The position numbers were made by a program, and so were the translations under genes. Below the pieces are notes generated by a model. The model ran no database searches. It saw nothing but the letters and a program-made list of their open reading frames with translations, and was not told the DNA's origin. Positions 25,053 to 42,982 of a stretch of 46,696 nt of DNA are shown piece after piece (the stretch's first letter is position 1; the number at the start of each line of letters is the position of its first letter). The DNA comes from Bryobacterales bacterium (GTDB lineage Bacteria > Acidobacteriota > Terriglobia > Bryobacterales > UBA6623), in the NCBI GenBank assembly GCA_026713545.1, contig JAPOOG010000017.1, positions 1-46,696 of the forward strand, written 5' to 3'.

Positions 25053-25949
25053 ATGAGGGCGTTTTGCTGTTTCCTGCTGTTGGCCGTGCCGCTTGCGGCC
25101 CAGCACGGGCGCTACGACAAGGAGTCGAACCACCCGGCCATCGGCGACCCCGTGCAGATTGCGGCCGGTGAAAAACTCTACCAGCGGTCCTGCGCCGGCT
25201 GCCACGGCCCGGACGGCAGCGGCGGACGCGGTCCCAACCTCGTGGTGCGGCCGATGTGGCACCCGCTCAGTGACGAGAAGATCTTCTCGATGATCCGCGA
25301 CGGTATCCCGGGCACGGTCATGCCGCCCACGAATCTGTCTGATGATGAGAGTTGGCAGCTCGTCGCTTTCATTCACGCGTTGATCGGACCGGCGGCCGAA
25401 AATCCGCCGCCCGGCGACGCAAGCGCCGGCGAGAAGATCTTCTGGGGTAAGAAAGCCGATTGCTCGAGTTGCCACACGATCCGTGGCAAGGGCGGATACC
25501 TCGGCCCGGACTTGACCAACATCGGCGGCATGCGCCCCTTGGCCGTCATTCGGGAATCCGTCCTTGAACCCTCGGAGGAACTCTATCTGCTCGAGAAGGA
25601 AGCGGTAACGGTAAAGCTGAAGAACGGCGAGACCATCCACGGCGTGGCGCGCAACCGCAACAACTACTCACTGCAGATCATCGAGCGGGATGGGGGTCTC
25701 CATCTCCTCTCGATGCGCGACGTCGCCGAGCTTGAAATCCTCGAACGCTCCGCCATGCCCGGCGACTACGGCGAGAAGCTTTCGGCCGAAGAACTCGAAA
25801 ACCTGTTCGCTTTCCTGGCCCGGCAGAGTCTTCGCGGCACAGCGGAGGCGGCTCACTCGCGAGGAAGTCCTCAGACCGACAAGCCGGTCAACGAATCGCC
25901 GCGTCGACTTGACTCGAATGTGAACCTTGGCAGCGAAGAAAAAAACTAG
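25053..25949 (+). CDS. Exported diheme cytochrome c
   Basis: A 298-residue periplasmic electron carrier with a signal peptide (CFLLLAVPLAAQ). The first heme site is CAGCH (residues 47-51) with axial Met90 in PGTVMPP; the second is CSSCH (137-141). A C-terminal domain (LKNGETIHGVARNRNNYSLQIIERDG, then LEILERSAMPGDYGEKLS) is the beta-rich segment that follows heme domains in large PVC/Acidobacteria cytochromes. The PQQ dehydrogenase starts 61 bp downstream, so this is its likely electron acceptor. Oddity: the last 28 residues come from the first copy of an 84-bp tandem duplication whose second copy holds the start of the dehydrogenase gene. The tail is therefore probably a recent, non-functional extension. 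Confidence 0.92.
   Translation: MRAFCCFLLLAVPLAAQHGRYDKESNHPAIGDPVQIAAGEKLYQRSCAGCHGPDGSGGRGPNLVVRPMWHPLSDEKIFSMIRDGIPGTVMPPTNLSDDESWQLVAFIHALIGPAAENPPPGDASAGEKIFWGKKADCSSCHTIRGKGGYLGPDLTNIGGMRPLAVIRESVLEPSEELYLLEKEAVTVKLKNGETIHGVARNRNNYSLQIIERDGGLHLLSMRDVAELEILERSAMPGDYGEKLSAEELENLFAFLARQSLRGTAEAAHSRGSPQTDKPVNESPRRLDSNVNLGSEEKN
25863..25947 (+). repeat. Tandem duplication, copy 1 (in the cytochrome 3' end)
   Basis: This 85-bp segment, GGAAGTCCTCAGACCGAC... to GAAAAAAACT, recurs 5 bp further on at 25953-26035. Both share long identical blocks, e.g. GCGTCGACTTGACTC and GTGAACCTT, with scattered substitutions and three single-base gaps. This copy encodes the C-terminal tail of the cytochrome. 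Confidence 0.85.
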
Positions 25950-25952
25950 CGG

Positions 25953-26035
25953 GGAAGTCCTCAGACCGCCAAGCGGGGCAATGGACCGTCGCGTCGACTT
26001 GACTCAAACGTGAACCTTAGCGAGCGAAAAAAACT
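25953..26035 (+). repeat. Tandem duplication, copy 2 (at the PQQ dehydrogenase start)
   Basis: The 83-bp partner of 25863-25947. It contains the GTG at 26010 used as the longest start of the PQQ dehydrogenase; copy 1 has the equivalent GTGAACCTT at 25920, which there is out of use. Confidence 0.85.
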
Positions 26036-27632
26036 GATGCGTGTGCTGGCGTTGCTTCTCACGGTCTGTGGCCTTGCGGCCGGCCAGGTTCGTTACGAAG
26101 ATATCCTGAATGGCCCCGGCAAGGACTGGCTGACTTACGCCGGAAGCTACAACGGCTGGCGCCACAGCCCGCTGGACCAAATCACACCGCAGAATGCCGG
26201 CTCGATGGTCCCCAAGTGGGTCTATCGAGTTCCCAACTCGGTTCGTCTGCAGACTTCGCCTGTCGTTTACGACGCCGTCATGTACGTGACCGACACGAAC
26301 GCCGTGTATGCGCTCGACGCGCGCAGCGGCCGGTTGATCTGGAGCTATGTCGACGGACGCGCCGAAGAGTCCGGGCCCAATCGCGGGCCGGCGATTCTCG
26401 GAGATCGCATCTACTTTACAACCAGCGACAACTATCTCACCGCTCTTGATCGGCGGTCGGGAGGCGTCCTCTTCAGCGAGAAATTCGCCCGTGTCGAGGA
26501 CGGCGTCACTTCGACGTCCGCCCCTTTCGCCGTCAAGGACATGGTCATCGCCGGCAGCGCCGGTGGCGACTACGGCGTTCGTGGTTTTTTGGCCGCCATG
26601 TCGGCTGAAACGGGCAAAGAGATCTGGCGTACCTACACCGTCCCGGCCAGGGGCGAGCCCGGTTCGGAAACCTGGGGTGATCTCATCGAGTGGGGAGGCG
26701 CGGCCACTTGGCTCTCCGGCACTTTCGATCCCGAGCTCAACACGCTCTATTGGACGACCGGCAACCCCTGGCCCGACTTCAACGCCTCCGTGAGGCCGGG
26801 TGACAACCTCTTCAGTTGCTCGCTGCTGGCGCTCGATCCCGAGACCGGCAAGATCAAATGGTACTTCCAGTTCACTCCGCACGACACCCATGACTGGGAC
26901 GCCCAGAGTTGGCCGATGCTGGTCGACTTGGAGTGGGAAGGCAAGCCGCGCAAGCTCGTCCTGCACGCCAACCGCAACGGGTTCTTTTACATCCTCGACC
27001 GCGAAACCGGAGAGTTTCTCCAGGCTACCAAGCTTACGGACAGCGTCGATTGGGCTACCGGCATCGACAAGAACGGCCGTCCCATCCTTGTTCCCGGCAA
27101 GGACCCGACAATCGAAGGCAACTGGGTTTGCCCCAGTGTCAAAGGCGCAACGAACTGGATGGGCCAAACCTTCCATCCCGATACCGGGCTGCTCTACGTC
27201 CTCACGTTGGAGCAGTGCGGCTGGTTCACTACGTCCGAGCAAGAGCCCCTCCCGATGAAGAACTTCCCCGGCGGCGGCGCCACCGAAGAGGGAGGTCAGG
27301 TCATCCTGCGGGCCATCGACCCGAAGACCGGCGAGCGCGCTTGGGAATATCCCATGACCGGCTTCGGCCGCATGTGGACCGGCACGGTCTCGACGAAGAC
27401 GGGGGTTCTGTTCTCCGGCGACGACGCCGGACAGTTGATCGCGCTTGAAGCCAGGACCGGCCGCCACCTGTGGAACTTCAACATGGGCGAACTTTCGACC
27501 GCTTCGCCCGTCATCTATGAAGTCGACGGCAAGCAGCACGTCGCCATCGCCTCCGCCACCGCTATCTTCGCTTTCGGTCTCTTCGAACCCGTCGAGCCAA
27601 TGGACTTGCCCAAGATCAAGACCCGGAAATAA
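26010..27632 (+). CDS. PQQ-dependent (quinoprotein) alcohol dehydrogenase-like enzyme
   Basis: A 540-residue exported eight-bladed propeller that oxidises alcohols or similar substrates with pyrroloquinoline quinone. A signal peptide (MRVLALLLTVCGLAAG) follows a basic segment. The start may be the GTG at 26010 or the ATG at 26037; neither has a clear Shine-Dalgarno. Family marks are TYAGSYNGWRHSPLDQITPQ near the N-terminus, tryptophan-docking blades such as AAMSAETGKEIWRTYTV and LLALDPETGKIKWYFQFTPH, then DTHDWDAQSWPML in the region that supplies the catalytic Asp, and GAFGRMW-type GFGRMWTG. The vicinal cysteine pair of methanol dehydrogenases is not seen. Electrons would pass to the diheme cytochrome encoded upstream. 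Confidence 0.92.
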   Translation: MNLSERKKLMRVLALLLTVCGLAAGQVRYEDILNGPGKDWLTYAGSYNGWRHSPLDQITPQNAGSMVPKWVYRVPNSVRLQTSPVVYDAVMYVTDTNAVYALDARSGRLIWSYVDGRAEESGPNRGPAILGDRIYFTTSDNYLTALDRRSGGVLFSEKFARVEDGVTSTSAPFAVKDMVIAGSAGGDYGVRGFLAAMSAETGKEIWRTYTVPARGEPGSETWGDLIEWGGAATWLSGTFDPELNTLYWTTGNPWPDFNASVRPGDNLFSCSLLALDPETGKIKWYFQFTPHDTHDWDAQSWPMLVDLEWEGKPRKLVLHANRNGFFYILDRETGEFLQATKLTDSVDWATGIDKNGRPILVPGKDPTIEGNWVCPSVKGATNWMGQTFHPDTGLLYVLTLEQCGWFTTSEQEPLPMKNFPGGGATEEGGQVILRAIDPKTGERAWEYPMTGFGRMWTGTVSTKTGVLFSGDDAGQLIALEARTGRHLWNFNMGELSTASPVIYEVDGKQHVAIASATAIFAFGLFEPVEPMDLPKIKTRK

Positions 27633-27802: not shown

Positions 27803-28888
27803 TCAGTGCACCGCAACGTCGCGTACCTTCGTCCGGCGCGAGCTTCCGGCCGGCCCTTCGACCCGCAGGGTGACGACGTACTCTCCCGCCTGCCCATAGG
27901 TGTGCAGGGGATGCTGCTCGACGGATCTCGAGCCGTCGCCGAAGTCCCACTTCCACGATTCGACATCTCCCTCCGACATGTCCTGAAACGCGACCAGACG
28001 GCGCTGCATGTCGAGCACCCGGAAGGCCCACTTGGCATCGAGCGGCTTGCGGAATCGTTCGTCCAACGGCATGAGCCGAAAGGCGACCAGATCGGATGCG
28101 TTGCCGTACATCGTCGTCTTGTGGGAAAGGTTCCAGAATCCCTCGTAGTCCTCCTTGTTCACGTCGTCGTAGTCAAGGATCGACCACGACATCCCGATGA
28201 CCTCGTTTTCCATCAGCTTCGATACGACGGCCCGGGCCGGCTCGGGCGGGGCGTAGTCGAACGGTGTCATCCAGAACTCCAGGATCAGCTTGCCGCTCTC
28301 ACCCGGCTTGAAATCGTAGGCGTATGCCGCATTCGCCCACGGCAGCTCTTTGACCCAGGGCTGGCTGCCCCACACGAACGCCCAGTCCTGGCCTTCGTGC
28401 GGCGTCATGATGTGGTAGTTCTGTGCATGGAGGCCGTGAAAGAGGAAGTGCGCCTTCATCTTGTCGAGCTTCTTGTAGGGGTGCTCGGTTTTGATGAAAG
28501 GTCCTCCTGACAAGTCGGCATCGACAACCAGCTCGAAAATGTCGTTGTACCGGCCGGCTCGGGCAAAATCCCAATAGTTGTCGAACGCCTCGTACAGGAA
28601 GTACAAGTGAGGCATTCCCTTCACCCAGCCGACCGTAACCTTCACATCCAGGTTTGACGGATCGATGTTCCTGCCGTGGCCCTTGACCGTGTCGGAGAGT
28701 TGATCCGTGCCGATCCTGAACGAATCGGGCACGATCGCCCAGTCGTCGGTCTTCGCGTCGATGCGCGGAATCTTGTCCGGCGGAAACTGGAAGATCTTGA
28801 ACTCGACATCGGGTCGTTCCAGGGCCAAAAGCCCCCCGGCATGGCCGAGGACGGCGAGTGTCAAAACGAAGAATGGTTTCATGCTCAT
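27803..28888 (-). CDS. Exported protein with C-terminal PKD domain
   Basis: A 361-residue secreted protein. GGAGGAG precedes the ATG at 28888, and MKPFFVLTLAVLGHAGGLLA is the signal peptide. The bulk (about residues 30-250) is a beta-sandwich-like region beginning DKIPRIDAKTDDWAIVPDSF, which resembles carbohydrate-binding (CBM9/DOMON-like) modules found in extracellular redox and glycoside-active proteins. The last 90 residues form a PKD domain, SWKWDFGDGSRSVEQHP and HTYGQAGEYVVTLRV. It is the last gene of a four-gene minus-strand run and ends 171 bp from the convergent PQQ gene. No enzymatic motif is seen; a substrate-binding or adhesive role is an inference. Confidence 0.8.
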   Translation of the reverse strand: MSMKPFFVLTLAVLGHAGGLLALERPDVEFKIFQFPPDKIPRIDAKTDDWAIVPDSFRIGTDQLSDTVKGHGRNIDPSNLDVKVTVGWVKGMPHLYFLYEAFDNYWDFARAGRYNDIFELVVDADLSGGPFIKTEHPYKKLDKMKAHFLFHGLHAQNYHIMTPHEGQDWAFVWGSQPWVKELPWANAAYAYDFKPGESGKLILEFWMTPFDYAPPEPARAVVSKLMENEVIGMSWSILDYDDVNKEDYEGFWNLSHKTTMYGNASDLVAFRLMPLDERFRKPLDAKWAFRVLDMQRRLVAFQDMSEGDVESWKWDFGDGSRSVEQHPLHTYGQAGEYVVTLRVEGPAGSSRRTKVRDVAVH

Positions 28889-28974: not shown

Positions 28975-29685
28975 TTACGGGATTGCACGCATGCGCAGGC
29001 TGCGATACCAGACGGGGTCATCGTGGTCCTGCAGATGCAAAAAGCGGCCGCGGTCCGTCACCTCCCCGCCCCGCTTCCGCAGCCGCTCGACCAGGTCTTG
29101 CAGTGAAGGGTCGGTGTAGTCGATGTCAACGACCTTCTCGCCGTTGAGCCAGTGCTCGATGCGCGTGCCATGCCCCACGATGCGGCCCGTGTTCCACTCT
29201 CCGGGTGGCTTGGTGGTGTCCTTCGAAGGCGCGAACGCGTAATAGAGCGCGGCGGCGTTGGTGCGCGGGTCTCTGCCGTCGCCGTGCAGCTCGTTGTCGA
29301 GGATCTGGTATTCGTATTGTCCCGGCCGGTAGTAGACGCCGCTGTTGCCGCCTGGTGAAATCTTCCATTCGAACCGCAATTCGAAATCATCGGGCACTCT
29401 CTCGACGGTGTAGTCGATGCCGCCGCCCGTGCCGGTTCGTTCGATGGCGCCGTCCTCCGCCTTCCAGTTGCCGCCCGGCGCCTCCCAGCCGCTGAGGTCC
29501 CGGCCGTTGAAAAGGAGCTTGAAGCCGGCGGCTTTCTCCTCGGCGGTAAGCGAATTGGGCTCGCTGGCGGCAGGCCCCTGCGAAGCCTGGTCACCTTCCG
29601 CTTCGCTCGGAACCGTGTTGTCCGGCCCGCAAGCCGGACCCGCCAAGAGACCGATGACCATGGAAAAAAGGAGTGAAAGTTTCAT
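28975..29685 (-). CDS. DUF1080-family secreted protein (second copy)
   Basis: A 236-residue protein. GGGAGGG before the ATG at 29685 sets the start; the frame to 30264 upstream overlaps the neighbouring gene and is rejected. The signal MKLSLLFSMVIGLLAGPAC may be a lipoprotein signal, although the residues before the Cys are not a perfect lipobox. The fold begins FKLLFNGRDLSGWEAPGGNW and continues GNSGVYYRPGQYEYQILDNE and NPPGEWNTGRIVGHG-like KPPGEWNTGRIVGHG, all standard for DUF1080. Family members cleave 3-keto-glycosides or bind sugars. It lies 47 bp downstream of the toroid protein gene and 86 bp before the PKD gene, so all may be one operon. Confidence 0.88.
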   Translation of the reverse strand: MKLSLLFSMVIGLLAGPACGPDNTVPSEAEGDQASQGPAASEPNSLTAEEKAAGFKLLFNGRDLSGWEAPGGNWKAEDGAIERTGTGGGIDYTVERVPDDFELRFEWKISPGGNSGVYYRPGQYEYQILDNELHGDGRDPRTNAAALYYAFAPSKDTTKPPGEWNTGRIVGHGTRIEHWLNGEKVVDIDYTDPSLQDLVERLRKRGGEVTDRGRFLHLQDHDDPVWYRSLRMRAIP

Positions 29686-29732: not shown

Positions 29733-30776
29733 TCACTCCACTGCTTTGCCGCCCGCTTTCGGCGCTGTCGGCTCTTCCGTGAGCACCAGCGCTATCGTGG
29801 CCCAGCTCGTGGCGCAGATCGAGATCCACTGGTCTTTCCCGTGAGGAAAGCCGCTCTCGAAGTACGGCTGAAACGGCCGGGCGCGCGACTTCACGTACCA
29901 GGAACCGTCCTCTCGCTGGGTGTCGAGCAGGTACTGCAGTCCGCTTTGATAGGCGCTGTGAGAGGGCGGCATCCCTCCACCCAGACGAAGCGCCGCCAGA
30001 ACCTGCCCCGTCGCGTAGGCATCGCTCTCGAGAGTCGGAAACTGCGCCCAGCCCCCGTCCGGACGTTGCCGCTTCAGCAGCTCTCTCATCGGTTCCATGG
30101 TCCTCGAGACCTGCGCCCCCGCCCAACCCAGGCCCAGCAGCCGGAAGGCGGCCTCTTCGGTCGCGACGGGCGATCCCGCCGCGATGAACCAGTTCATGGC
30201 GCGCCTGACCCGCTCGTCGAACTCCTCGCGCCGGCCCTCCGGCGCATACTTGCGCAGGCTCCACACGCCCAGTGCGGTGGTTGTGTAGTCGCTGTACTGA
30301 ACCGGCGGGCGGTCCGGCGCCGTGCTCCAGTAGCCGTCCGGCATCTGTCCCTCCGCCATGTGGATGGTCATCGCATCGGTGAGCGCATCGGCGGGCAGGT
30401 CCTGCGCGGCCATTCCCGCCAAAGTATACGCGATGGAGTGGTGGCCGGCGCCGTCCGTCATCGCCTGCAGCATCGTCTCGCGCCGGGCGCGCATCATCGT
30501 GCCGACCGTCTGGTTCAGTTCCCGCGCTTTCTTGTCATCCACCGCAAATCCCCGCTCACGGGCAAACCCGACGGCCATTGCCGGAAGCGATTGGTGATGG
30601 CACGACACGCAGCCGGCCTTCTTGAAAAAGATCAGCGGGCTTTGCTGAATGAGAACCATGCTCTTGCCGACGGCGGCACGGACTTGCTCAACGCCGATCT
30701 CGGCGGCCCGCAAAGAGCTCGGCATTGCGGCGCAAGACAAGACGCCCGTCAGCAACAGCCGGCTCAAAAACTTCAT
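29733..30776 (-). CDS. Exported alpha-toroid (terpene cyclase/prenyltransferase-like) protein with CXXCH
   Basis: A 347-residue exported protein (signal FLSRLLLTGVLSCAAM). A single heme-type motif CVSCHH is at residues 56-61, close behind an N-terminal helix. The rest consists of repeats of the alpha/alpha-toroid fold of squalene-hopene cyclase and prenyltransferases, e.g. MPDGYWSTAPDRPPVQYSD, RQRPDGGWAQFPTLESDAYA and REDGSWYVKSRARPFQPYFE. The cyclase DXDD acid motif is not visible, so cyclisation is unlikely. The toroid may bind a ligand or partner and present a heme. Its ATG overlaps the stop of the ankyrin cytochrome gene by 4 nt (ATGA), implying translational coupling and joint function. 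Confidence 0.82.
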   Translation of the reverse strand: MKFLSRLLLTGVLSCAAMPSSLRAAEIGVEQVRAAVGKSMVLIQQSPLIFFKKAGCVSCHHQSLPAMAVGFARERGFAVDDKKARELNQTVGTMMRARRETMLQAMTDGAGHHSIAYTLAGMAAQDLPADALTDAMTIHMAEGQMPDGYWSTAPDRPPVQYSDYTTTALGVWSLRKYAPEGRREEFDERVRRAMNWFIAAGSPVATEEAAFRLLGLGWAGAQVSRTMEPMRELLKRQRPDGGWAQFPTLESDAYATGQVLAALRLGGGMPPSHSAYQSGLQYLLDTQREDGSWYVKSRARPFQPYFESGFPHGKDQWISICATSWATIALVLTEEPTAPKAGGKAVE

Positions 30777-32104
30777 TTCTTGCCCTTCTCCGCCTCCAGA
30801 AGAAGCCGGACGATTTCAGTGTTGCCACGCTTGCGGGCCAGACGCAAAGCGGTCTCGCCGTCCAGGCCCTTCGGAGTGATGTCGGCTCCGGCCGCCAGCA
30901 GGGCTTTGACGGTTTCGGCATCGACGTAATCCGAGCAGGCCGCCTGCATGAGCGCCGTATAGCCCATGGCGTTGCGCGCCTCGATGTCGGCGCCGTGATC
31001 GATGAGCGCTCGCACGATGCCGGGCGCGCCCCGGGCAGCCGCCATGGTCAAAGCGCTGTCCTTGCTGTTCGAGCTGACGCTTTCCCCAGCTTGGATGTTC
31101 ACGTCGGCGCCGTGCTTCAGCAGGAACCGCACGGCCTCCTGCTTGCGCGACCGCACCGCGGCCATCAGCGCGGTGCGGCCATTCCTGCGCCTCTCGTTGA
31201 CCTCGGCGCCCGCTCCGATCAGAACCCGTATCGAGTCGAGGTCGCCCGCCCGCGCCGCTTCCATCAGTGCAGTCACGCCGCGCACGTCCTTGACATGGGG
31301 ATCGGCGCCAGCCGCGAGCAGGTCCCCGACGGCATCCCCCGCGCCGGGACGCCGGGCGGCAATCAGCAGTGCGGTGCGGCCCAGTTGAGAGCGCTTGTCC
31401 ACCTGCGCCCCGGTCTCCATCAGCAACCGCATCTTGTCACGATCGGCCGTCGCCCGCATCAGCGGCGTGGCTCCTGCAGGATTGGCCTGCTCGGGGTCGG
31501 CGCCGTGCTTCAGGAGCCTTTCCAAGACCTCGGGGCCGGCATGAAGCGCGGCGTGCATCAGCGGCGTCTCTCCGAACGGGTCCGTTGCATGGACATCGAT
31601 ATCAGACCCGAGCAGGCGGCTGACCTCGCTCAGGTCGTTTCGCCGGATGGCCGCGAACAGCTTTTCCAGGGTTTCACTCAGCCCGCTGCTCTCGCCGGCA
31701 GAGGGCTCCTCGGCCGGCGGATCGTTGGGCCAGTCGGCGCCCTGGTCGATCCAGGTTCGCAGTAGCTCGATCTCTCGGGAAGGCAGCGCTCCGGTCGGCG
31801 GCATGCGGAGGCCCGGCTCCGACCCCGTGATGCGCCGGATCAGAAGGCTCTCGGCGGCGTTGCCGGGCAGGATGACCGCTCCCGAGTCGCCTCCCCTGAA
31901 GGCGGCTTCCTTCTGATCAAGGCGCAGGTTCGCCGTCTGGAACGACGCGTTGTGGCAACCTGCGCAGCGCTCGTCGAGCAGCGACCGCGCCTGGCGGCTC
32001 AAGTCGGCTCGGGGCGTGTCATTGTCGGCGGCGATCGCAGGAAATCCTGCCGCACAGCAGACCAACAGCAGCCCGTTGAAGAGGCGATTCGTGGCGACAA
32101 GCAT
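30773..32104 (-). CDS. Exported cytochrome-like protein with ankyrin repeats
   Basis: A 443-residue protein. From the ATG at 32104 it has a signal peptide (FNGLLLVCCAAGFPAIA); an ATG at 32143 is in frame but falls inside repeat element A. A planctomycete-type cytochrome domain follows: CAGCH at 47-51, LRLDQKEAAFRGGDSGAVIL and the typical RITGSEPGLRMPP and ELLRTWIDQGADWP. From about residue 150 at least seven ankyrin repeats run to the end, e.g. TPLMHAALHAGPEVLERLLK and TALMEAARAGDLDSIRVLIG. Ankyrin repeats bind proteins, so this may dock a partner to a heme domain. The next gene, overlapping by 4 nt, also carries CXXCH. Similar pairs occur in Acidobacteriota and Planctomycetes without assigned function. 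Confidence 0.85.
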   Translation of the reverse strand: MLVATNRLFNGLLLVCCAAGFPAIAADNDTPRADLSRQARSLLDERCAGCHNASFQTANLRLDQKEAAFRGGDSGAVILPGNAAESLLIRRITGSEPGLRMPPTGALPSREIELLRTWIDQGADWPNDPPAEEPSAGESSGLSETLEKLFAAIRRNDLSEVSRLLGSDIDVHATDPFGETPLMHAALHAGPEVLERLLKHGADPEQANPAGATPLMRATADRDKMRLLMETGAQVDKRSQLGRTALLIAARRPGAGDAVGDLLAAGADPHVKDVRGVTALMEAARAGDLDSIRVLIGAGAEVNERRRNGRTALMAAVRSRKQEAVRFLLKHGADVNIQAGESVSSNSKDSALTMAAARGAPGIVRALIDHGADIEARNAMGYTALMQAACSDYVDAETVKALLAAGADITPKGLDGETALRLARKRGNTEIVRLLLEAEKGKK

Positions 32105-32137
32105 CGGCCGTGTCCAGGGTCCCGCGGACCCATTATC

Positions 32138-32398
32138 CTGCATTCCTCACCACGCGGCGAGGCGAAGTGCGTGAGAGGGCCGTCAGGACGAGGCGTGAGC
32201 CGCTCGGCGCGCGCAGGTGTAGTGGCCATATCGCCTCCTTCATCCTTCGGTTCACGAAACACGGCCTGTACGGTTCACCGGCCGTCAGACATTTCTTTCT
32301 GGAGCGGACCAGGCCCCACCAGAGCTTTTTACTAATAACTAACGAACCACGGCCTTTTTCTCGCGTGCTTCGGCCGTCAATCGGGGAAAAATACAGGC
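32138..32398. repeat. Intergenic element A, variant copy 3 (left repeat flanking VapBC)
   Basis: The left 85 bp (CCTGCATTCCTCACCACG... to GCAGGTGTA, 32138-32222) match element A copy 1. The middle is replaced by a different segment: GGCCATATCGCCTCCTTC, CGGTTCACCGGCCGTCA, CATTTCTTTCTGGAGCGGAC, CTAATAACTAAC. The right end returns to CGCGTGCTTCGGCCGTCA. The 3' part from about 32200 to 32386 is nearly repeated in direct orientation at 33411-33600, on the other side of the VapBC genes. This copy covers most of the 332-bp gap between vapC and the ankyrin cytochrome gene. Confidence 0.8.
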
Positions 32399-32436
32399 TA
32401 GGCCCCCTCCCATGGTTTTCACGAATCACGGCCTTT
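32399..32436. repeat. Short CACGAATCACGGC motif
   Basis: TTTTCACGAATCACGGCC near 32415-32432 matches 46433-46470 and 46648-46668 and, inverted, 45642-45662. It runs up to the vapC stop codon. It may be part of the variant element or an independent small repeat. Confidence 0.45.
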
Positions 32437-32850
32437 TTATTTGTGTCCTTCGCCGGGGATCGACCAGTCCTCGCAATGGAGACCCTCCACCCGAACGAAC
32501 TCCTGGGTGTTGGCGGTCACCAGGATCAAACCACGCGCCAGCGCTTGACCCGCGATCAAGGTGTCAAGCGGCCCGATGGGGCGTCCGATTGCTTCGAGGT
32601 TCGCCCGAACCGCACCTGCCTCACGGGCGTCCGCGGCATCGAAAGGTACGACTTCGAACGCGATGTGATCGAGCAATCCGAGGTTCCGATTCGTGTATCT
32701 ACTTTTGAAGGCGCTGTAATAAAGCTCGTAGCTCACCGGAGCCGGTAACCCGAATTCTGAAGATGCGTGGCGACGCACTCGATCAACGAGCGAGGCAGGC
32801 CGGCCGTTCAGTAACGCAATGCAAGCGTTTGTGTCGAGCAGATAGCGCAT
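32437..32850 (-). CDS. vapC: VapC-type PIN-domain ribonuclease toxin
   Basis: A 137-residue PIN-domain toxin; such enzymes cut initiator tRNA or 23S rRNA and arrest translation. The acidic metal-binding quartet is visible: Asp6 (LLDTNACI), Glu42 (PVSYELYYS), Asp96 (GPLDTLIAGQAL) and Asn/Asp at 114 (LVTANTQEF). The length is standard. The gene starts 15 bp after the antitoxin stop, so both are made from one transcript. All active-site residues are present, so the toxin looks functional. The pair is bracketed by direct repeats (see 32138 and 33401). Confidence 0.92.
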   Translation of the reverse strand: MRYLLDTNACIALLNGRPASLVDRVRRHASSEFGLPAPVSYELYYSAFKSRYTNRNLGLLDHIAFEVVPFDAADAREAGAVRANLEAIGRPIGPLDTLIAGQALARGLILVTANTQEFVRVEGLHCEDWSIPGEGHK

Positions 32851-33400: not shown

Positions 33401-33603
33401 CGCGCCGCTTCCGCTCGGCGCGCAGGTGTAAGTGGCCATATCGCCTCCTTCATCCTTCGCTTCACGAAATAGAGGCCTGTACGGTTCACCGGCCGTCAGG
33501 CATTTCTTTCTGGAGCGGACCAGACCCCCGCCAAAGGTTTTCACTAATAACTAACCACTGACCACGGCCTTTCTATCGCGTGCTTCGGCCGTCAGGTGGG
33601 GAG
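33401..33603. repeat. Intergenic element A, variant copy 4 (right repeat flanking VapBC)
   Basis: Starting in CCGCTCGGCGCGCAGGTGTA, it repeats 32200-32386 almost base for base, with the same order: GGCCATATCGCCTCCTTC, CGGTTCACCGGCCGTCA, CATTTCTTTCTGGAGCGGAC, CTAATAACTAAC, CACGGCCTTTCT, CGCGTGCTTCGGCCGTCA. It lacks the left TGCATT arm. It ends 9 bp before the DUF1501 stop codon. The two copies are in direct orientation about 1.2 kb apart. Confidence 0.8.
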
Positions 33604-33612
33604 AAGTGTCGC

Positions 33613-35031
33613 TTAGGCGAGGATTTCGTTGACAACCCGTCCGTAGACATCGGTCAGCCGGAAGTCCCGCCCGCTGTACCGATAGGTCAGGCGCTTGTGA
33701 TCGAGTCCGAGCAGATGCAGGATCGTGGCGTGCAGGTCATGCACGTGGACTTTGTCCTTGACTGCTTGGAACCCGAACTCGTCCAACTCGCCGAAAGCCG
33801 TTCCGCCCCGGACGCCGCCTCCGGCCAGCCAGGCGCAGAACCCGTACGGATTGTGACCGCGTCCGAACGTATCGGGCTTCCCCGCGCCATCTTGCAAGTC
33901 CTGATAGTGCGGCGTACGCCCGAACTCTCCTGACCAGACAAGCAGCGTTTCGTCGAAGAGGCCGCGCGCCTTGAGGTCCTGTATCAGCGCGGCGATCGGC
34001 TTGTCCACCGACCGGCATCGCTCGGGATGCGCCTTCCGAATGTTCGCGTGGCTGTCCCAGCCGTTCGAAGTGATCTGAATGAACCGTACGCCGGCTTCCG
34101 CAAAACGCCTCGCTAGCAGACATTGCCTGCCGAAATCGTCTGTCGGTTTCGTGCCGATTCCATACAGCTCCAGCGTGGCTTGGGATTCGCCCTTGATGTC
34201 GACCAGTTCCGGCACTTCCGCCTGCATCCGAAAGGCGAGTTCGAACGACTCGATAACGCCCTCGATCTGCCGGTCGGAGTGGAGCCGGTCCAGGTGCGCG
34301 CGATTCATCTCCTGGATCAGGTCGAGTTGGCGCCGCTGGATTTCGGGCCGCGTCGACGGGTCATTGAGGTAACCGATCGTGGCTTGGCGCGCTCCGGTCG
34401 CGGAACTGCCCAGGGCCGTGCCCTGGAAGACTGCGGGCAGGAACGCGCTGCCGTACAGTTGCACGCTGCCCCCGTCACCCGTGACATTGGGGGCAATGGT
34501 CACGAACGCTGGTAGGTTGCGGTTCTCCGTGCCCAGGCCGTAGGCGACCCACGATCCGATCGAGGGCCGCACGAGCTGTGTCGCGCCCGTGTGCAACTGG
34601 CGGACTGCCGGTGCGTGCGCCTCGCTGTCGGCTACCATCGCCTTGAGCAGGCATATGTCGTCAACGTGGCGGCTCAAATGGGGCAGGAGATCGGAAACCG
34701 CAAGCCCCGATTGGCCCGCCGGAGAGAACTCCGCGATCGAGCCCATCAACCTCGAGTAGGCTACGCCGGGCATCGAGCGGTTCGATGGCAGCGAGTACGG
34801 GATCTCCTCGCCGTCGCGCCGGGTCAGCAACGGCTTCTGGTCGAACAAGTCGACTTGGGAAGGGCCGCCTTGCATCCACAGGAAGATCACGCGCTTCGCT
34901 CGCGGGGCGTGATGCGGAGACTTGGGTCCGAGAGGGTCGGGTTTCGCAGCCGCCGGCTCCGCCAGTAGCGAGCGCAAGGCGAGCATCCCGAATCCGCATC
35001 CCCAATTGCCAAGCCACTCTCTCCGATTCAT
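33613..35031 (-). CDS. DUF1501-family exported protein (partner of the split PSD1 gene)
   Basis: A 472-residue sulfatase-like protein. A twin-arginine leader starts it (MNRREWLGNWGCGFGMLALRSLL). The alkaline-phosphatase-type core shows RVIFLWMQGGPSQVDLFDQKP with metal-binding residues, LPHLSRHVDDICLLKAM, WDSHANIRKAHPERC, and LVWSGEFGRTPHYQ. The C-terminal DKVHVHDLHATILHLLGLDH and YSGRDFRLTDVYGRVVNEIL are family signatures. The function of DUF1501 proteins is unproven; they are always paired with PSD1 proteins and predicted secreted. The gene lies 18 bp downstream of the C-terminal fragment of the PSD1 gene at 35050. As the upstream gene is split by an IS, its expression may depend on IS-borne or internal promoters. 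Confidence 0.92.
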   Translation of the reverse strand: MNRREWLGNWGCGFGMLALRSLLAEPAAAKPDPLGPKSPHHAPRAKRVIFLWMQGGPSQVDLFDQKPLLTRRDGEEIPYSLPSNRSMPGVAYSRLMGSIAEFSPAGQSGLAVSDLLPHLSRHVDDICLLKAMVADSEAHAPAVRQLHTGATQLVRPSIGSWVAYGLGTENRNLPAFVTIAPNVTGDGGSVQLYGSAFLPAVFQGTALGSSATGARQATIGYLNDPSTRPEIQRRQLDLIQEMNRAHLDRLHSDRQIEGVIESFELAFRMQAEVPELVDIKGESQATLELYGIGTKPTDDFGRQCLLARRFAEAGVRFIQITSNGWDSHANIRKAHPERCRSVDKPIAALIQDLKARGLFDETLLVWSGEFGRTPHYQDLQDGAGKPDTFGRGHNPYGFCAWLAGGGVRGGTAFGELDEFGFQAVKDKVHVHDLHATILHLLGLDHKRLTYRYSGRDFRLTDVYGRVVNEILA

Positions 35032-35049: not shown

Positions 35050-35847
35050 TCAGCTCCGAAACATGAATTCGCTCGAGGCGAACACGGCGTGACAGTACCG
35101 CGCCCAAGCCTCGGCTTGCCCGAAGCCCGCTTCAGTATCGCGCAGGAACGAGGTCGCGCGTTGCAGGTCGCTGTCCGACGTGGGTCGGCCCAAAGCTCGT
35201 AACAGGAAAGTCCGCACCCGTTGCTCCTCCGTGAGACCGTTATCGGCGAGCAGAGCCTGGGCCACGGCCCGGGACTGTTCGATCAGGAAAGGAGAGTTCA
35301 TCAGGTACAGGGCCTGCGTGGGTACGGTCGTGACGTCCCGATTTCCCTTGACGGTGTTCGGGTCCGGGAAATCGAACAGATTCAGTACATCGACCTCCGC
35401 AAGCTGAGACTTGCGCAGAGTGGGCAGGTAGATGGTGCGGCGGAAGCGGACCGAGTCGTCCAGCTCCAGCTTGGGCGCCAGCAGTGGTGGCTGTCCCATG
35501 CGCACGCTGCCCCGCGAATTCAGTGGCAGGCTGGGACCGCCGCCGCGGAAATCCAGAGAGCCGCTGACGAACAATACGGCGTCCCGAATCGTCTCCGCTT
35601 CCAGCCGCCGCCGGCGCGAACGCCACAGAAAGCGGTTCTCGGGGTCGGCAGCGGCGGCTCGCTCGCCATGGGAAGCCGCCAGTCCGTACGTGCGAGACAG
35701 CACGATTTCGCGAATCAACGACTTGACAGACCAGTCGAGATCCTGGAGCCGGAGCGCAAGGTGATCGAGCAATTCCGGATGGCTGGGACGCTCCCCGAGC
35801 AAGCCGAAATTGTCAACGCTGGCCACGATCCCGGCGCCGAAGAGGTG
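35050..35847 (-). pseudogene. PSD1 (DUF1549/DUF1553) gene, 3' part, separated by IS21-family insertion
   Basis: This is the last 265 residues of the protein whose first 568 are encoded at 38299-40002. The fragment resumes HLFGAGIVASVDNFGLLGER and includes PSHPELLDHLALRLQDLDWS, REIVLSRTYGLAAS, DAVLFVSGSLDF and the DUF1553 ending TLRKSQLAEVDVLNLFDFPD, VPTQALYLMNSPFL. Removing the IS and one copy of its 7-bp target repeat restores one frame: IWH from the 5' part continues straight into HLFGAG. The total would be 833 residues, normal for the family. No frameshift or stop is seen on either side, so the insertion looks recent. Confidence 0.9.
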
Positions 35848-35854
35848 GTGCCAG
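35848..35854 (+). repeat. Target-site duplication, left
   Basis: GTGCCAG directly precedes the IS left end and is repeated at 38299-38305. With one copy removed, the PSD1 frame is restored. Confidence 0.9.
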
Positions 35855-35892
35855 TGGCCGACGACAATTACTCTGGCCGGTCGCGACCACTA
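35855..35892 (+). repeat. IS left terminal inverted repeat
   Basis: 38 bp, exact reverse complement of 38261-38298. It contains the inner perfect palindrome GGTCGCGACC. Confidence 0.95.
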
Positions 35893-35928
35893 GAAAGTCC
35901 GCTTGAGCCTCGCGGTTGGTGGCTAGAC

Positions 35929-35951
35929 TCGCCCTTCGTTTTGGAGGGCGA
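35929..35951 (+). other. Hairpin over the istA ribosome-binding site
   Basis: TCGCCCT (35929-35935) pairs with AGGGCGA (35945-35951); the right arm overlaps the GGAGG (35943-35947) that serves the istA GTG start at 35957. It could lower transposase translation, or block it in transcripts reading in from outside. Confidence 0.5.
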
Positions 35952-35956
35952 AGACA

Positions 35957-37453
35957 GTGATCACGGACCAACAAGTGAGGCTATTGATGAAGGAACTAGG
36001 ACGGAACAAGCCGCTGACGACAGCGGCGGCGAAGGCGGACATCAGTGAGCGGACAGCCCGTCGGTGGCGTCAGCGCGGGGTGCTCCCGAGCGAGACGGTC
36101 AAGCCACGGTACTGGCGGACCCGGGAGGATCCGTTCGCGGACGTCTGGCTGGAAGTCGAGGCGATGCTGGATCTGGATGCGGGGCTGCAGGCGAAGCTGA
36201 TCTTCGAGCAGTTGCAGAAGCAGCATCCAGGGCGGTTCGAGCCGGGCCAGCTGCGCACCCTGCAGCGGAGGATCCGGCGCTGGCGGGCACTGCGCGGCCC
36301 GGACAAGGAAGTGTTTTTCCCGCAGGAGCTGGAGCCGGGCTGGCAGTGCCAGTCGGATTTCACGGACATGGGACGGCTGGGTGTGCAGGTCGGGGGCCGG
36401 CCGTACCGGCACCTGGTGTATCACTTCGTGCTGGCGTACTCGAACTGGGAATGGGTGCGGATCGCACACTCGGAGAGTTTCGAAGCGTTGGGGGAGGGCT
36501 TGCAGGAGAGCCTCTGGGTGCTGGGGTCGGTGCCCCGGGAGCATCGGACCGACAATCTCTCGGCCGCGACGCACGAGCTGAAGACGAGTCACGGGAGAGC
36601 CTACAACGAGCGCTACCTCGAGATGCTGGGCCACTACGGGATGAAGCCGTCGAGGAACACGCCGGGGCGGGCGCACGAGAACGGAGACATCGAGGCGGCG
36701 AACCAGCACTACAAGCGGGCTGTGAGGCAGCGGCTGATGCTGCGGGGGTCGCCGGCATTCACGAGCGAGGAGCACTACGGGCGGTTTCTACGGGCAGTGG
36801 CGCGCGGGCGCAACGAGGGGCGCTGGAAGCGGCTGGAGCAGGAACGCAAGCGCATGCGGGAGCTGCCGGCAACGGCGTTGCCGGCGTACAGGACGGTGTT
36901 CGCGACGGTGACGAAGTGGAGCACGGCGCGAGTCAGCGGCAAGGCCTACTCGGTGCCGTCGCGTTTGATCGGGCGGCGTGTGGAAGTGCGCCTGCGGGCG
37001 TCGCAGGTGGAGTTCCGGTTGGATGGGGAGCTGGTGGGGGAGTGCGAGCGGATCGTGGGCGGGCGGCCCTGGAAGGTGGACTACCGGCACGTGATTGGCT
37101 CGTTGCTGCGCAAGCCGGGGGCGTTCCCAAGGTACGCCTACCGCGAGGCGCTGTTTCCGACGCTGGTGTTCCGGCAGGCCTATGACGCCTTGAGCGAGAG
37201 CGGCAGGAGCGGGGCGGATCTGGAGTACTTGCGCATCCTGCACTTGGCGGCGACGACGTTGGAATCGTCGGTGGAAGCGGAGTTGCGGCGGCAGCTGGAG
37301 GCCGGGCAGCGACCGGACAGCGAGGCGATCCGGGCAATGCTGGAGCCAGCCAGGCCGTCCTCTGCGGCAGCGGTCGCCATGGCGCCGTTGCAGCCGGAGC
37401 TGAGCTCGTACGACGAGTTGCTGGAGACGGTGACAGTGAAGGAGGCGGGATGA
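35957..37453 (+). CDS. istA: IS21-family transposase IstA
   Basis: A 498-residue DDE transposase. The N-terminus is a helix-turn-helix (AAAKADISERTARRWRQRG). The rve integrase core holds the catalytic triad: Asp in WQCQSDFTDMG, Asp in EHRTDNLSAA, and Glu in NTPGRAHENGDIEAANQHYK. A C-terminal beta domain follows (TKWSTARVSGKAYSVPSRL, VEVRLRASQVEFRLDGE). It cuts and joins the IS ends; strand transfer needs IstB. The GTG start at 35957 has GGAGG 9 nt upstream. The last 4 nt overlap istB (ATGA), the usual coupling in this family. Confidence 0.96.
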   Translation: MITDQQVRLLMKELGRNKPLTTAAAKADISERTARRWRQRGVLPSETVKPRYWRTREDPFADVWLEVEAMLDLDAGLQAKLIFEQLQKQHPGRFEPGQLRTLQRRIRRWRALRGPDKEVFFPQELEPGWQCQSDFTDMGRLGVQVGGRPYRHLVYHFVLAYSNWEWVRIAHSESFEALGEGLQESLWVLGSVPREHRTDNLSAATHELKTSHGRAYNERYLEMLGHYGMKPSRNTPGRAHENGDIEAANQHYKRAVRQRLMLRGSPAFTSEEHYGRFLRAVARGRNEGRWKRLEQERKRMRELPATALPAYRTVFATVTKWSTARVSGKAYSVPSRLIGRRVEVRLRASQVEFRLDGELVGECERIVGGRPWKVDYRHVIGSLLRKPGAFPRYAYREALFPTLVFRQAYDALSESGRSGADLEYLRILHLAATTLESSVEAELRRQLEAGQRPDSEAIRAMLEPARPSSAAAVAMAPLQPELSSYDELLETVTVKEAG

Positions 37454-38220
37454 GCAAGGCGAGGGAGAGAGCCCAGCGGCTGGAGCAGCGACTGCGGGAT
37501 CTCCGCCTGCCGTCGTTTCTGGCTCACTACCAGGACCTGGCCGCCAAGGCACGGGATGGGCAGTGGGAGCCGGAGCGCTATCTGGACGAACTGCTGGAGC
37601 TGGAGGCCAGTGAGCGGACGGACCGCCGCATCGCGCGGTTGCTGCGGGAATCGAAGCTGCCGCGAGGCAAGACGCTGCAGACGCTGGAACTGGGGCGGCT
37701 GCCGGAAGCGGTGCGGGGCCGGACGCGCTGGCTGTGCACGGGGGAGTTCCTCGAGGACGCCACGAACGTGTGTGTGTTCGGGAACCCGGGTGTGGGCAAG
37801 ACGCATCTGATGGCAGCGGTGGGACGGTCCCTGGTGGAACGCGGGCAGCCGGTGCTGTTCGTGGCGGTGCAAGCGCTGGTGGAGCGGCTGGTGGAGGCGA
37901 AGCGGGACTTGCGGCTGGCGCGGGAACTGCGACGCCTGGACCGCTACGCCTGTGTGTGTCTCGACGATATCGGCTATGTCCGGCAGGACCGAGCAGAGAT
38001 GGAGGTGCTGTTCTCGCTGCTGGCGGAGCGCTACGAGCGGCGTAGCGTGATGATCACGTCGAATCTGGTGTTCTCGCAGTGGAATCAGATCTTCCACGAC
38101 GACATGACCGCGGCGGCCGCAATCGACCGGGTGGTGCATCACTCGGTGATCTTGGAACTGACCGTGCCGAGCTACCGGGCTGAGGCCGCGAAAGCTCGAA
38201 CGCAAGGAGAGGAGGCGTGA
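37450..38220 (+). CDS. istB: IS21-family helper ATPase IstB
   Basis: A 256-residue AAA+ ATPase that selects target DNA and activates IstA. It begins with the helical LEQRLRDLRLPSFLAHYQDL region. Walker A is GNPGVGKTHLM near residues 114-124, Walker B VCLDDIGY near 172-179, sensor region SVMITSNLVFSQW, and the C-terminal AAAIDRVVHHSVILEL is the IstB/DnaC-like signature. The gene is full length with a 4-nt overlap to istA and ends 40 bp before the right inverted repeat. Confidence 0.96.
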   Translation: MSKARERAQRLEQRLRDLRLPSFLAHYQDLAAKARDGQWEPERYLDELLELEASERTDRRIARLLRESKLPRGKTLQTLELGRLPEAVRGRTRWLCTGEFLEDATNVCVFGNPGVGKTHLMAAVGRSLVERGQPVLFVAVQALVERLVEAKRDLRLARELRRLDRYACVCLDDIGYVRQDRAEMEVLFSLLAERYERRSVMITSNLVFSQWNQIFHDDMTAAAAIDRVVHHSVILELTVPSYRAEAAKARTQGEEA

Positions 38221-38260
38221 ACAGAGTACAATGAACACCGCCGCGAGGGGCCGGCCACTT

Positions 38261-38298
38261 TAGTGGTCGCGACCGGCCAGAGTAATTGTCGTCGGCCA
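38261..38298 (-). repeat. IS right terminal inverted repeat
   Basis: 38 bp, exact reverse complement of the left end at 35855-35892. Confidence 0.95.
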
Positions 38299-38305
38299 GT
38301 GCCAG
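38299..38305 (+). repeat. Target-site duplication, right
   Basis: GTGCCAG directly follows the IS right end, identical to 35848-35854. Confidence 0.9.
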
Positions 38306-40002
38306 ATTCTGTTGGCCATGACCCGGGCGGTCAGCGGATTGTCAGGCTCTGTCAGCCAGCGAGCCAGCTCGAGGCGTCCGCTGCTCTTCTGGAAACCGAT
38401 GCCGATCAAGCGTCGATTCGCGATCTTGGAATTCGGATCGAGAGGGACGAGGGAGAGGAAACCCCTGGGTATTTCGTCACCGAGGCTGCGCGGGTTGCCG
38501 CCGAGGCAGATCCGGGCGTTCTCGGGTTCCGGTTCGTCGGCCAGCGCCAGAGCCATTGGCGGTGCGGGCTTGCCGTAGTGCAGTATCCGCGCGGCTTCGG
38601 TCTTGGCAGTCGTCGCGTCCTTGCGCGCGCCGGCCAATTGATCGTTCAGGCCATTGATTGAATCTCGGTCCGGCCCCTCTCCTTCCAAGGCCTTCACCTT
38701 GGCCTGTAACTCCTTGACGAGGCTCTCGGCCTTGGCCTGCTCGGCCAGGGCCCGCCGGTACTCCCCGTGCCAGGCCTCCAATGCCTCGGCGCGCTCCCGG
38801 AGTTCTGCGGAGCTCTCGGGGAGCGGCATGCGATGGACGTCGCTGAAGACGCCTGACATCCTTGCCTCGAGGGTCCTCGTGCTACGGAAAATCCCGGCCA
38901 GCGCATAGTAGTCTCGCTGCGGTATCGGGTCGAACTTGTGGTCGTGGCAGCGGGCGCAGCCGACAGTCAGGCCGAGGAAGGCTCTGCCCAAGGTGTCGAG
39001 CTGATTGTCGATGATGTCCATCCGGAGCTGCACTTTGTCCTGGTCCACGAGTGCCCATGGACCAATGGCCAGGAAGCCTGTCGCGACGATCTGCTCGCGC
39101 CGCTGGGTGTCGTCCCGGAATGCAAGCACATCCCCGGCGACCTGTTCGCGCACGAAGCGGTCATACGGCTTGTCGTGGTTGAACGCGTCGATGACGTAGT
39201 CGCGGTAGCGCCATGCGTGCAGCGACGGAATTCGCCGCCCGAGGCCCAAGGTGTCCGCATATCCAGCCAAGTCCAGCCAGTGACGGCCCCATCTCTCGCC
39301 GAAAGCCGGCGAGGCCAGGAATCTGTCAACGGCTGTTTCGATCGCATTCGGCCAAGGCGCCCTCTCGAATTCCTGGATCTGGGCCGGCGTTGGGGGCAGG
39401 CCGGTCAGATCGAGCGCCAATCGCCGCAGCAGGGTGTATCGATCGGCCTGCTCGACGGGAGCTAGGCCCTTGCTCTCCAGCTTGGCGAGCACGAAGCGGT
39501 CAATGCTTCCAAGGGGCCAATCGGTTCGGGTTACCTTCGGAGGCGCCCTGCTGGTGAGCGGCTGCCATGCCCAATGGCCGTCCTCGACCTTCGCCGCGTC
39601 AGCGGAGGCGTTCGCGGATGCGTCGGGGCCGGCCTCCGGCCAGGGCGCGCCGAGACGCACCCATTCCGTCAGCGCTTCAATGTCCCGGTTTCCGAGCTTC
39701 CCTGTCGGCGGCATGGCGATTCCTTCGGAGTCGTAGCGCACGGCCCGAATCAAGCGGCTTGCTTCCGGATCGCCAGGGACCACGGCGGGCCCGGATCGGC
39801 CCCCTTTGAACAGCGCCGCGGCGCTGTCAAGCCGGAACTCCCCGAACACGGTGGCTGCCTGGGAACTGTGGCACGGATAGCAATGCGCGGCCAGCAGCGG
39901 GCGGATGCGCTTTTCGAAGAACTCGATATGCTCCGGGTCCACCGCATCAGCCTGCGCGCCGGCGGAAGCGCAGATCAGCAATGCGAGAAACCATCGAGGC
40001 AT
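38299..40002 (-). pseudogene. PSD1 (DUF1549/DUF1553) gene, 5' part, interrupted by IS21-family insertion
   Basis: The first 568 codons of a large exported cytochrome-like protein. From the ATG at 40002 the signal is MPRWFLALLICASAGAQA; an ATG at 40032 is also in frame. Heme site CYPCH is at residues 41-45 (PSCyt1), followed by FRLDSAAALFKGGRSGPAVV and GKLGNRDIEALTEWVRLGAPWP. DUF1549 has TLLRRLALDLTGLPPTP, RHWLDLAGYADT and the second motif CARCHDHKFDP. A coiled-coil segment (AEQAKAESLVKELQAKVKAL) precedes the break. After IWH the frame runs into the IS and stops at 38260 after 13 foreign residues. The remaining 265 codons are at 35050-35847. The divergent copy at 40180 is intact and may compensate. 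Confidence 0.92.
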
Positions 40003-40179
40003 GAACTTCACGGCATTCTCGTCGATGACCATAGTGTAGGAAATCGACGTAGCAGCCGGATCGCGTCGGTCAGGCGAACGACGCCGGAACACCACCACGC
40101 GGTTTCGCAACCGCTCACCTCCTCTCTGCATGGGGAATGGTTGCGCTAGTAGAATGGGAACCGGTCGAACGGTTTCGCC
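40003..40179. promoter_or_regulatory. Shared 177-bp divergent promoter region of two PSD1 genes
   Basis: Both PSD1-DUF1501 units are transcribed away from this gap. It contains the hairpin GCGGTT-TCGC-AACCGC (40099-40114) and a related imperfect dyad AACCG-GTCGAA-CGGTT near 40160-40175, both carrying CGGTTTCGC. These may be operator sites for one regulator acting on both units. No -35/-10 pair is certain. Confidence 0.45.
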
Positions 40180-42760: not shown

Positions 42761-42963
42761 TAGCCTGCATGTCTCACCACGTGGCGAGGCGAAGTGCGTG
42801 AGAGGCCCGTCAGGACGAGGCGCGAGCCGGGCGGAGGAAAAAGGCGCGCGCAGGCGTACTTGACAGTACGTCGAGCACGGCAAGCAAGCGTTGCGAAGGA
42901 AAAGCGAAGTCATGGCGGTCGTATCGCGTGCTTCGACCGTCGGGTGGTGAGACATGCAGGCTA
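42761..42963. repeat. Palindromic intergenic element A, copy 2 (203 bp)
   Basis: The ends are 20-bp perfect inverted repeats, TAGCCTGCATGTCTCACCAC (42761-42780) and its complement at 42944-42963. The inner sequence matches copy 1 (23227-23405) with two small insertions of purine-rich sequence (GGAGGAAAAAG and GAAGGAAAAGCG). The arms extend by wobble pairing (CGAAGTGCGTG with CGCGTGCTTCG). It lies inside the PSD1-DUF1501 transcription unit, 4 bp after the PSD1 stop and just before the DUF1501 Shine-Dalgarno (GGGAGG, 42970-42975). In mRNA it would form a long stem. Confidence 0.88.
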
Positions 42964-42982
42964 ACTCCAGGGAGGCAGAGAT

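Follow-up and report, generated by a model that had tools for sequence, protein, structure and literature searches.

An ankyrin cytochrome and a heme-motif alpha/alpha toroid encoded as a split gene pair in a Bryobacterales bacterium and as a single chain in most relatives

In the relevant sections of He et al. (2017, PMC5615132), PSCyt-domain proteins are described as abundant proteins of PVC bacteria, Verrucomicrobia included, to which no function has been assigned. The PSCyt1 domain (PF07635) of the multi-domain cytochromes of Planctomycetes and Verrucomicrobia treated there is the same heme domain as that of the first gene described here, and it is likewise joined to protein-interaction and Planctomycete-specific domains; however, the interaction domains in the figure of that paper are Big_2, WD40, and F5/F8 C, ankyrin is absent from its main text, and no toroid partner is seen in those sections. 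A second point of comparison is Cj1386, the Campylobacter heme-trafficking protein cited in PMC11442138, which, like the pair described here, is an ankyrin protein tied to heme, but which, in the account given there, is cytoplasmic, binds heme via Tyr57, and hands it to catalase; the likeness is one of theme and is not evidence of homology. A third is provided by the squalene-hopene and other class II terpene cyclases (8paj, 8pak, 7xq4, 2sqc), which likewise form a complete alpha/alpha toroid with QxxDGxW repeats (Z 23–25), but which differ from the toroid described here in that the latter lacks DXDD, is exported as judged from its N-terminus, carries CxxCH, and is coupled or fused to ankyrins and a cytochrome. 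The PSCyt1 domain, the ankyrins, and the toroid fold are each known. As to their combination in a widespread family, we found no paper describing ankyrin, PSCyt1, and toroid together in the open-access literature, in agreement with an original prediction that had matched the locus to no described system, and no NCBIfam or Pfam model spans the combination.

The window, by which we mean the whole 46,696-nt stretch of DNA analysed, is contig 155 of a 5.6-Mb genome that is 99% complete, and the gene pair is present in it as listed in Table 1. The PSCyt1 domain of gene 1 scores 63.6 bits with Pfam (curated cut-off 22), and the ankyrin repeats that follow score 176.9 bits with Ank_2 and match Ank in 7 stretches, with 8 repeats recognised by our own HMM. 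We place the start of gene 1 at the ATG at 32104, and not at 32143, because the frame in the sister genome opens just 3 codons upstream of the same Met. The toroid encoded by gene 2 carries CVSCHH and toroid repeats and matches Pfam SQHop_cyclase_N at 27.8 bits (cut-off 26.2). The N-termini of both proteins resemble Sec signal peptides, as judged by inspection. The original prediction had described an ATGA overlap, a CAGCH cytochrome domain joined to at least seven ankyrin repeats, a CVSCHH toroid without a cyclase acid motif, export of both proteins, and DUF1080 and PKD genes next on the same strand; all are recovered here, the overlap also in both congeners, the domains above Pfam cut-offs, the toroid as a modelled squalene-cyclase-type fold with DXDD missing, export as signal-like N-termini, and the neighbours as PF06439 and PF18911 matches.

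Table 1. Features of the gene pair and its immediate downstream neighbours
Feature	Position in window	Strand	Basis
Gene 1, exported PSCyt1-ankyrin protein, 443 aa	30773–32104	-	ORF, Pfam PSCyt1 and Ank, sister-genome start
Gene 1 putative signal peptide	about 32027–32104	-	N-terminus, by inspection
PSCyt1 heme c domain	31790–31966	-	PF07635, E 2.6e-17
CAGCH of PSCyt1	31952–31966	-	PSCyt1 heme motif, gene 1
Distal Met (RMPP) of PSCyt1	about 31802–31804	-	gene 1
Ankyrin solenoid, 7–8 repeats	30791–31672	-	Ank_2, Ank; own HMM
ATGA overlap, gene 1 stop / gene 2 start	30773–30776	-	kept in two congeners
Gene 2, exported heme-motif alpha/alpha toroid, 347 aa	29733–30776	-	ORF, AlphaFold2 model, fold match
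Gene 2 putative signal peptide	about 30705–30776	-	N-terminus, by inspection
CVSCH, predicted heme c attachment motif, toroid loop between helices 1 and 2	30597–30611	-	conservation and modelled helices
DUF1080 / 3-keto-disaccharide hydrolase-like protein	28975–29685	-	PF06439, E 1.2e-41, 143 bits
Exported protein, C-terminal PKD domain	27803–28888	-	PF18911, E 1.1e-14

The window pair is a split version of a protein that is a single chain in most relatives. A homology search with the toroid found matches in 125 of 150 relatives, with up to nine matches per genome, many of them in open frames of 600–800 residues; these long frames reflect the fact that relatives mostly encode PSCyt1-ankyrin-toroid or ankyrin-toroid as a single polypeptide. 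In a first set of 85 toroid copies, taken from the window and 80 loci of named genomes, our own HMM found ankyrins in the same chain in 68, an adjacent ankyrin gene in 10, and no ankyrin in 7; Pfam recovered ankyrins in 3 of these 7, and 2 others end at contig edges. A second set, of 40 lower-ranking copies and without overlap with the first, has 38 fused, with one more recognised by Pfam. Pooled, 110 of 125 toroid copies carry ankyrins in the same chain, 10, the window included, have them in an adjacent gene, and 5 have neither, 2 of these 5 being cut by contig ends, where the counts are of copies, not of independent events, and some sets hold near-identical species pairs. The pair is thus normally one protein, which answers the question, attached to the original prediction, of whether the two genes keep together across genomes. 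That the PSCyt1-ankyrin and toroid proteins work together is strongly supported. The part of the original prediction that proposed a multiprotein complex therefore stands insofar as the two proteins act together, being a single chain in relatives, but not as to the DUF1080 and PKD proteins, whose partnership is not general (see below). PSCyt1 is also present in about half of the toroid copies in both sets, and a second heme would thus not be essential for the toroid. A phylum-wide profile search, in which 7 candidates were scored per genome, found at least 12 of 297. Homologues were also found in Planctomycetota and Verrucomicrobiota, and in a few MAGs whose labels, Bacteroidota or Actinomycetota, can err; a toroid-only homologue is present in Zavarzinella formosa (L107).

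We consider it fairly probable that the pair, taken as a whole, acts in the periplasm as a di-heme protein for redox chemistry or sensing; our confidence is greater for the linkage of the toroid with the ankyrin part alone. The predicted architecture is a PSCyt1 heme c domain, an ankyrin solenoid, and a heme c carried on a squalene-cyclase-type alpha/alpha toroid, here in a translationally coupled split. Export of both parts would use Sec, the Ccm system would attach their hemes, and the ankyrin solenoid would hold the toroid beside the PSCyt1 domain; the predicted structure of a natural fused relative (mean pLDDT 86.5, pTM 0.85) suggests that the three parts hold a fixed arrangement. The PSCyt1 heme, with His/Met ligation, would serve electron transfer. 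The toroid heme would be placed on the rim of the barrel, next to the conserved RPP, DGGW-DAYATG, and FQPYFESGFPHGxDQWIS loops, and would be the working heme, since no Met or His apart from the motif His is invariant as a candidate sixth ligand in the 83 aligned toroids (M43 is present in 62 of 83, H288 in 61 of 83). It could act on or sense a small molecule, with electrons exchanged via PSCyt1 and soluble periplasmic carriers. We offer tentatively the suggestion that the protein represents a periplasmic heme enzyme or sensor of a new class, in which a covalently attached heme c with an open site on a toroid rim is connected through an ankyrin solenoid to the electron-transfer heme of PSCyt1.

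The main rival is that the protein is a scaffold or adaptor, in which the ankyrins are the working part and bind partner proteins, and the toroid and PSCyt1 domain are non-catalytic relays or structural modules. Several observations fit such a role: ankyrins are protein-binding repeats; the domain order among relatives is variable, comprising C-A-T, A-T, T-A, and A-T-C (C, PSCyt1; A, ankyrins; T, toroid); and both the number of toroid matches per genome and the lower identity of the later ankyrin repeats (0.34, vs 0.50–0.54 elsewhere) fit diversified binding. However, conservation of the toroid is close to that of the PSCyt1 domain and above that of the later ankyrins, and it is the toroid that is found alone in a sister subfamily. 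Specifically, weak profile matches led to stand-alone CxSCHNNGD toroids of Acidobacteriota (L190–L193, L198–L202), in whose chains no ankyrin was found; these share the toroid and, in 9 of 9 members examined, the position of its CxxCH, but form a clearly separate subfamily with about 30% identity to the ankyrin-linked toroids. On balance, we regard the scaffold role as rather unlikely. Domain order also varies at one contig of a relative (L047/L132; G044 contig 23), where three toroid-ankyrin genes lie in tandem, two of them in reversed order, with the toroid preceding the ankyrins.

The toroid CxxCH lies in an exported-looking protein, as judged from its N-terminus, of an organism that bears Ccm genes: CcmE and CcmF-type assembly genes are present in the window's genome. 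The two Cys and the His are invariant in 83 of 83 toroids, a set fetched partly by a pattern containing CxxCH. Fairer tests are the 30 loci from a search not keyed to the motif, all 30 of which have CxxCH, and the 40 lower-ranking copies, all 40 of which have it, with 19 different XX combinations; conservation at this level in both is not due to chance. The motif is thus kept in homologues, including the ankyrin-less sister subfamily, as the original prediction required. In PSCyt1, CxxCH and the distal Met are invariant in 33 fused relatives. Heme attachment to the toroid is, from these sequence patterns, probable, and the competing idea, in which the cysteines of the toroid would make a disulfide or ligate some metal that is not heme iron, is improbable: it draws on the fact that a CxxCH motif, and no detected heme, lies behind the toroid assignment, and on the presence of CxxC pairs also in the ankyrin region of 24–28 of 33 fused copies, but in all copies the His is kept as strictly as the two Cys, the residues follow the usual heme c signature, and the protein looks exported in a genome with Ccm genes. 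The ankyrin-region CxxC itself (A3 columns; residues 293 and 296 of L068) may be an additional disulfide or metal site.

The AlphaFold2 model of the toroid, built with 83 sequences, has a pLDDT of 93.7 and a pTM of 0.93, and comprises twelve main helices; CxxCH falls in the loop that joins helix 1 to helix 2. The model matches 8paj_A (Z 24.9, 270 residues, rmsd 3.4); among solved folds, squalene-hopene cyclases and drimenyl diphosphate synthases are nearest (Z about 24–25), followed by GH105/GH88-type hydrolases and complement C4 (Z about 20–22). These top matches, together with a weak TIGR01787 match in all 83 toroids, could indicate that the toroid is a genuine class II terpene cyclase and carries CxxCH incidentally. 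We consider this highly improbable: DXDD is missing from 82 of 83 toroids, the single D.DD string lacks the cyclase D.DD.A context, DCTAE was not seen in the toroid alignment, the TIGR01787 score is far below the curated cut-off (31.7 vs 322.7 bits), the proteins look exported and are cytochrome-fused, and alpha/alpha toroids also occur in the hydrolases and complement proteins of the same fold list. Beyond structural QW-type motifs, no invariant catalytic residue set was found in the toroid alignment. On the CxxCH side, loop conservation exceeds that of the opposite rim (2.60 vs 1.94 bits, p 0.03), a modest effect with rim sides assigned from helix order, and also that of the helices (p 0.008). 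A resemblance of the CxxCH site to the thioester site of A-macroglobulin/complement TED toroids, which would put both at the same helix 1–2 loop, was considered and is an idea only: the folds match at Z about 20, but the profile alignment is non-significant and its register is shifted.

In an 85-row maximum-likelihood tree of the toroid copies, the split or fused state has changed at least six times, and split copies are scattered, with L074, for example, placed with full support beside the fused L072 and L127; the window groups with its two congeners, L061 and L062, in a single clade of split pairs. The split toroids for which a start was read each have their own signal-like N-terminus, and the ATGA layout is common to the three species, at 67–93% protein identity. 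With a toroid dN/dS of 0.25 against L061 and 0.17 against L062, and a PSCyt1-ankyrin dN/dS of 0.19 against L061, the split form in the three congeners is, by these ratios, under purifying selection. The idea that a frameshift broke a fused gene and left the window pair in decay, as fusion in most relatives might suggest, is refuted by these ratios, by the separate start and signal-like peptide of the second gene, and by the conserved ATGA layout, and retains almost no probability.

In a homology search of 81 loci, DUF1080 and PKD genes were detected next to the pair in the window, L061, and L062 alone, and a four-gene complex is thus not general and at most a feature of the genus. Clustering of flanking ORFs across the 81 loci brought out no partner beyond the ankyrin gene. 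Within 8 kb of the pair, PSCyt2-PSD1 genes occur in 13 of 81 loci, DUF1501 in 11 of 81, and kinases at a similar frequency, which we judge, informally, to be not clearly above the background expected of gene-rich families. PADLOC matches on the ankyrin part are generic repeat matches and do not indicate a defence role, and the window gave no match indicating a plasmid location.

Other features of the window were noted in passing. A VapC-like PIN-domain protein (32440–32850, minus strand; 63.5 bits) is encoded just upstream of the pair. On the other side lie a PQQ-dehydrogenase-like gene (26010–27632), nearest to, and below the cut-off of, TIGR04528 'acido-empty-quinoprotein group A', and, upstream of that gene, a cytochrome c gene with two CxxCH (25053–25949). 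A dispersed intergenic repeat of roughly 120–300 bp occurs at 32134–32433, 33431–33618, and 42761–42966, and has at least 40 genome copies at 78–100% identity (215 candidates at first look). An IS21-type element (istA, istB, 53-nt inverted ends; 35849–38304) splits a PSCyt1-PSCyt2-PSD1 gene (38263–40131 and 35050–35826) that is an unbroken 843-residue frame in the sister genome (L039/L061). Elsewhere in the window's own genome (contig 22; L058 5689–11328), a large protein with two CxxCH and an approximately 443-aa protein, which by eye resemble PSD2-5 and DUF1552, are followed by an exported-looking protein with about eight ankyrins.

The toroid-ankyrin family is a small and readily testable system of one or two soluble proteins, with two predicted hemes and a well-predicted fold, for which nature supplies both the split and the fused form. 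Heme c binding by the toroid, if real, would add an unusual scaffold to heme biology and would place ankyrin repeats in an extracytoplasmic redox protein.
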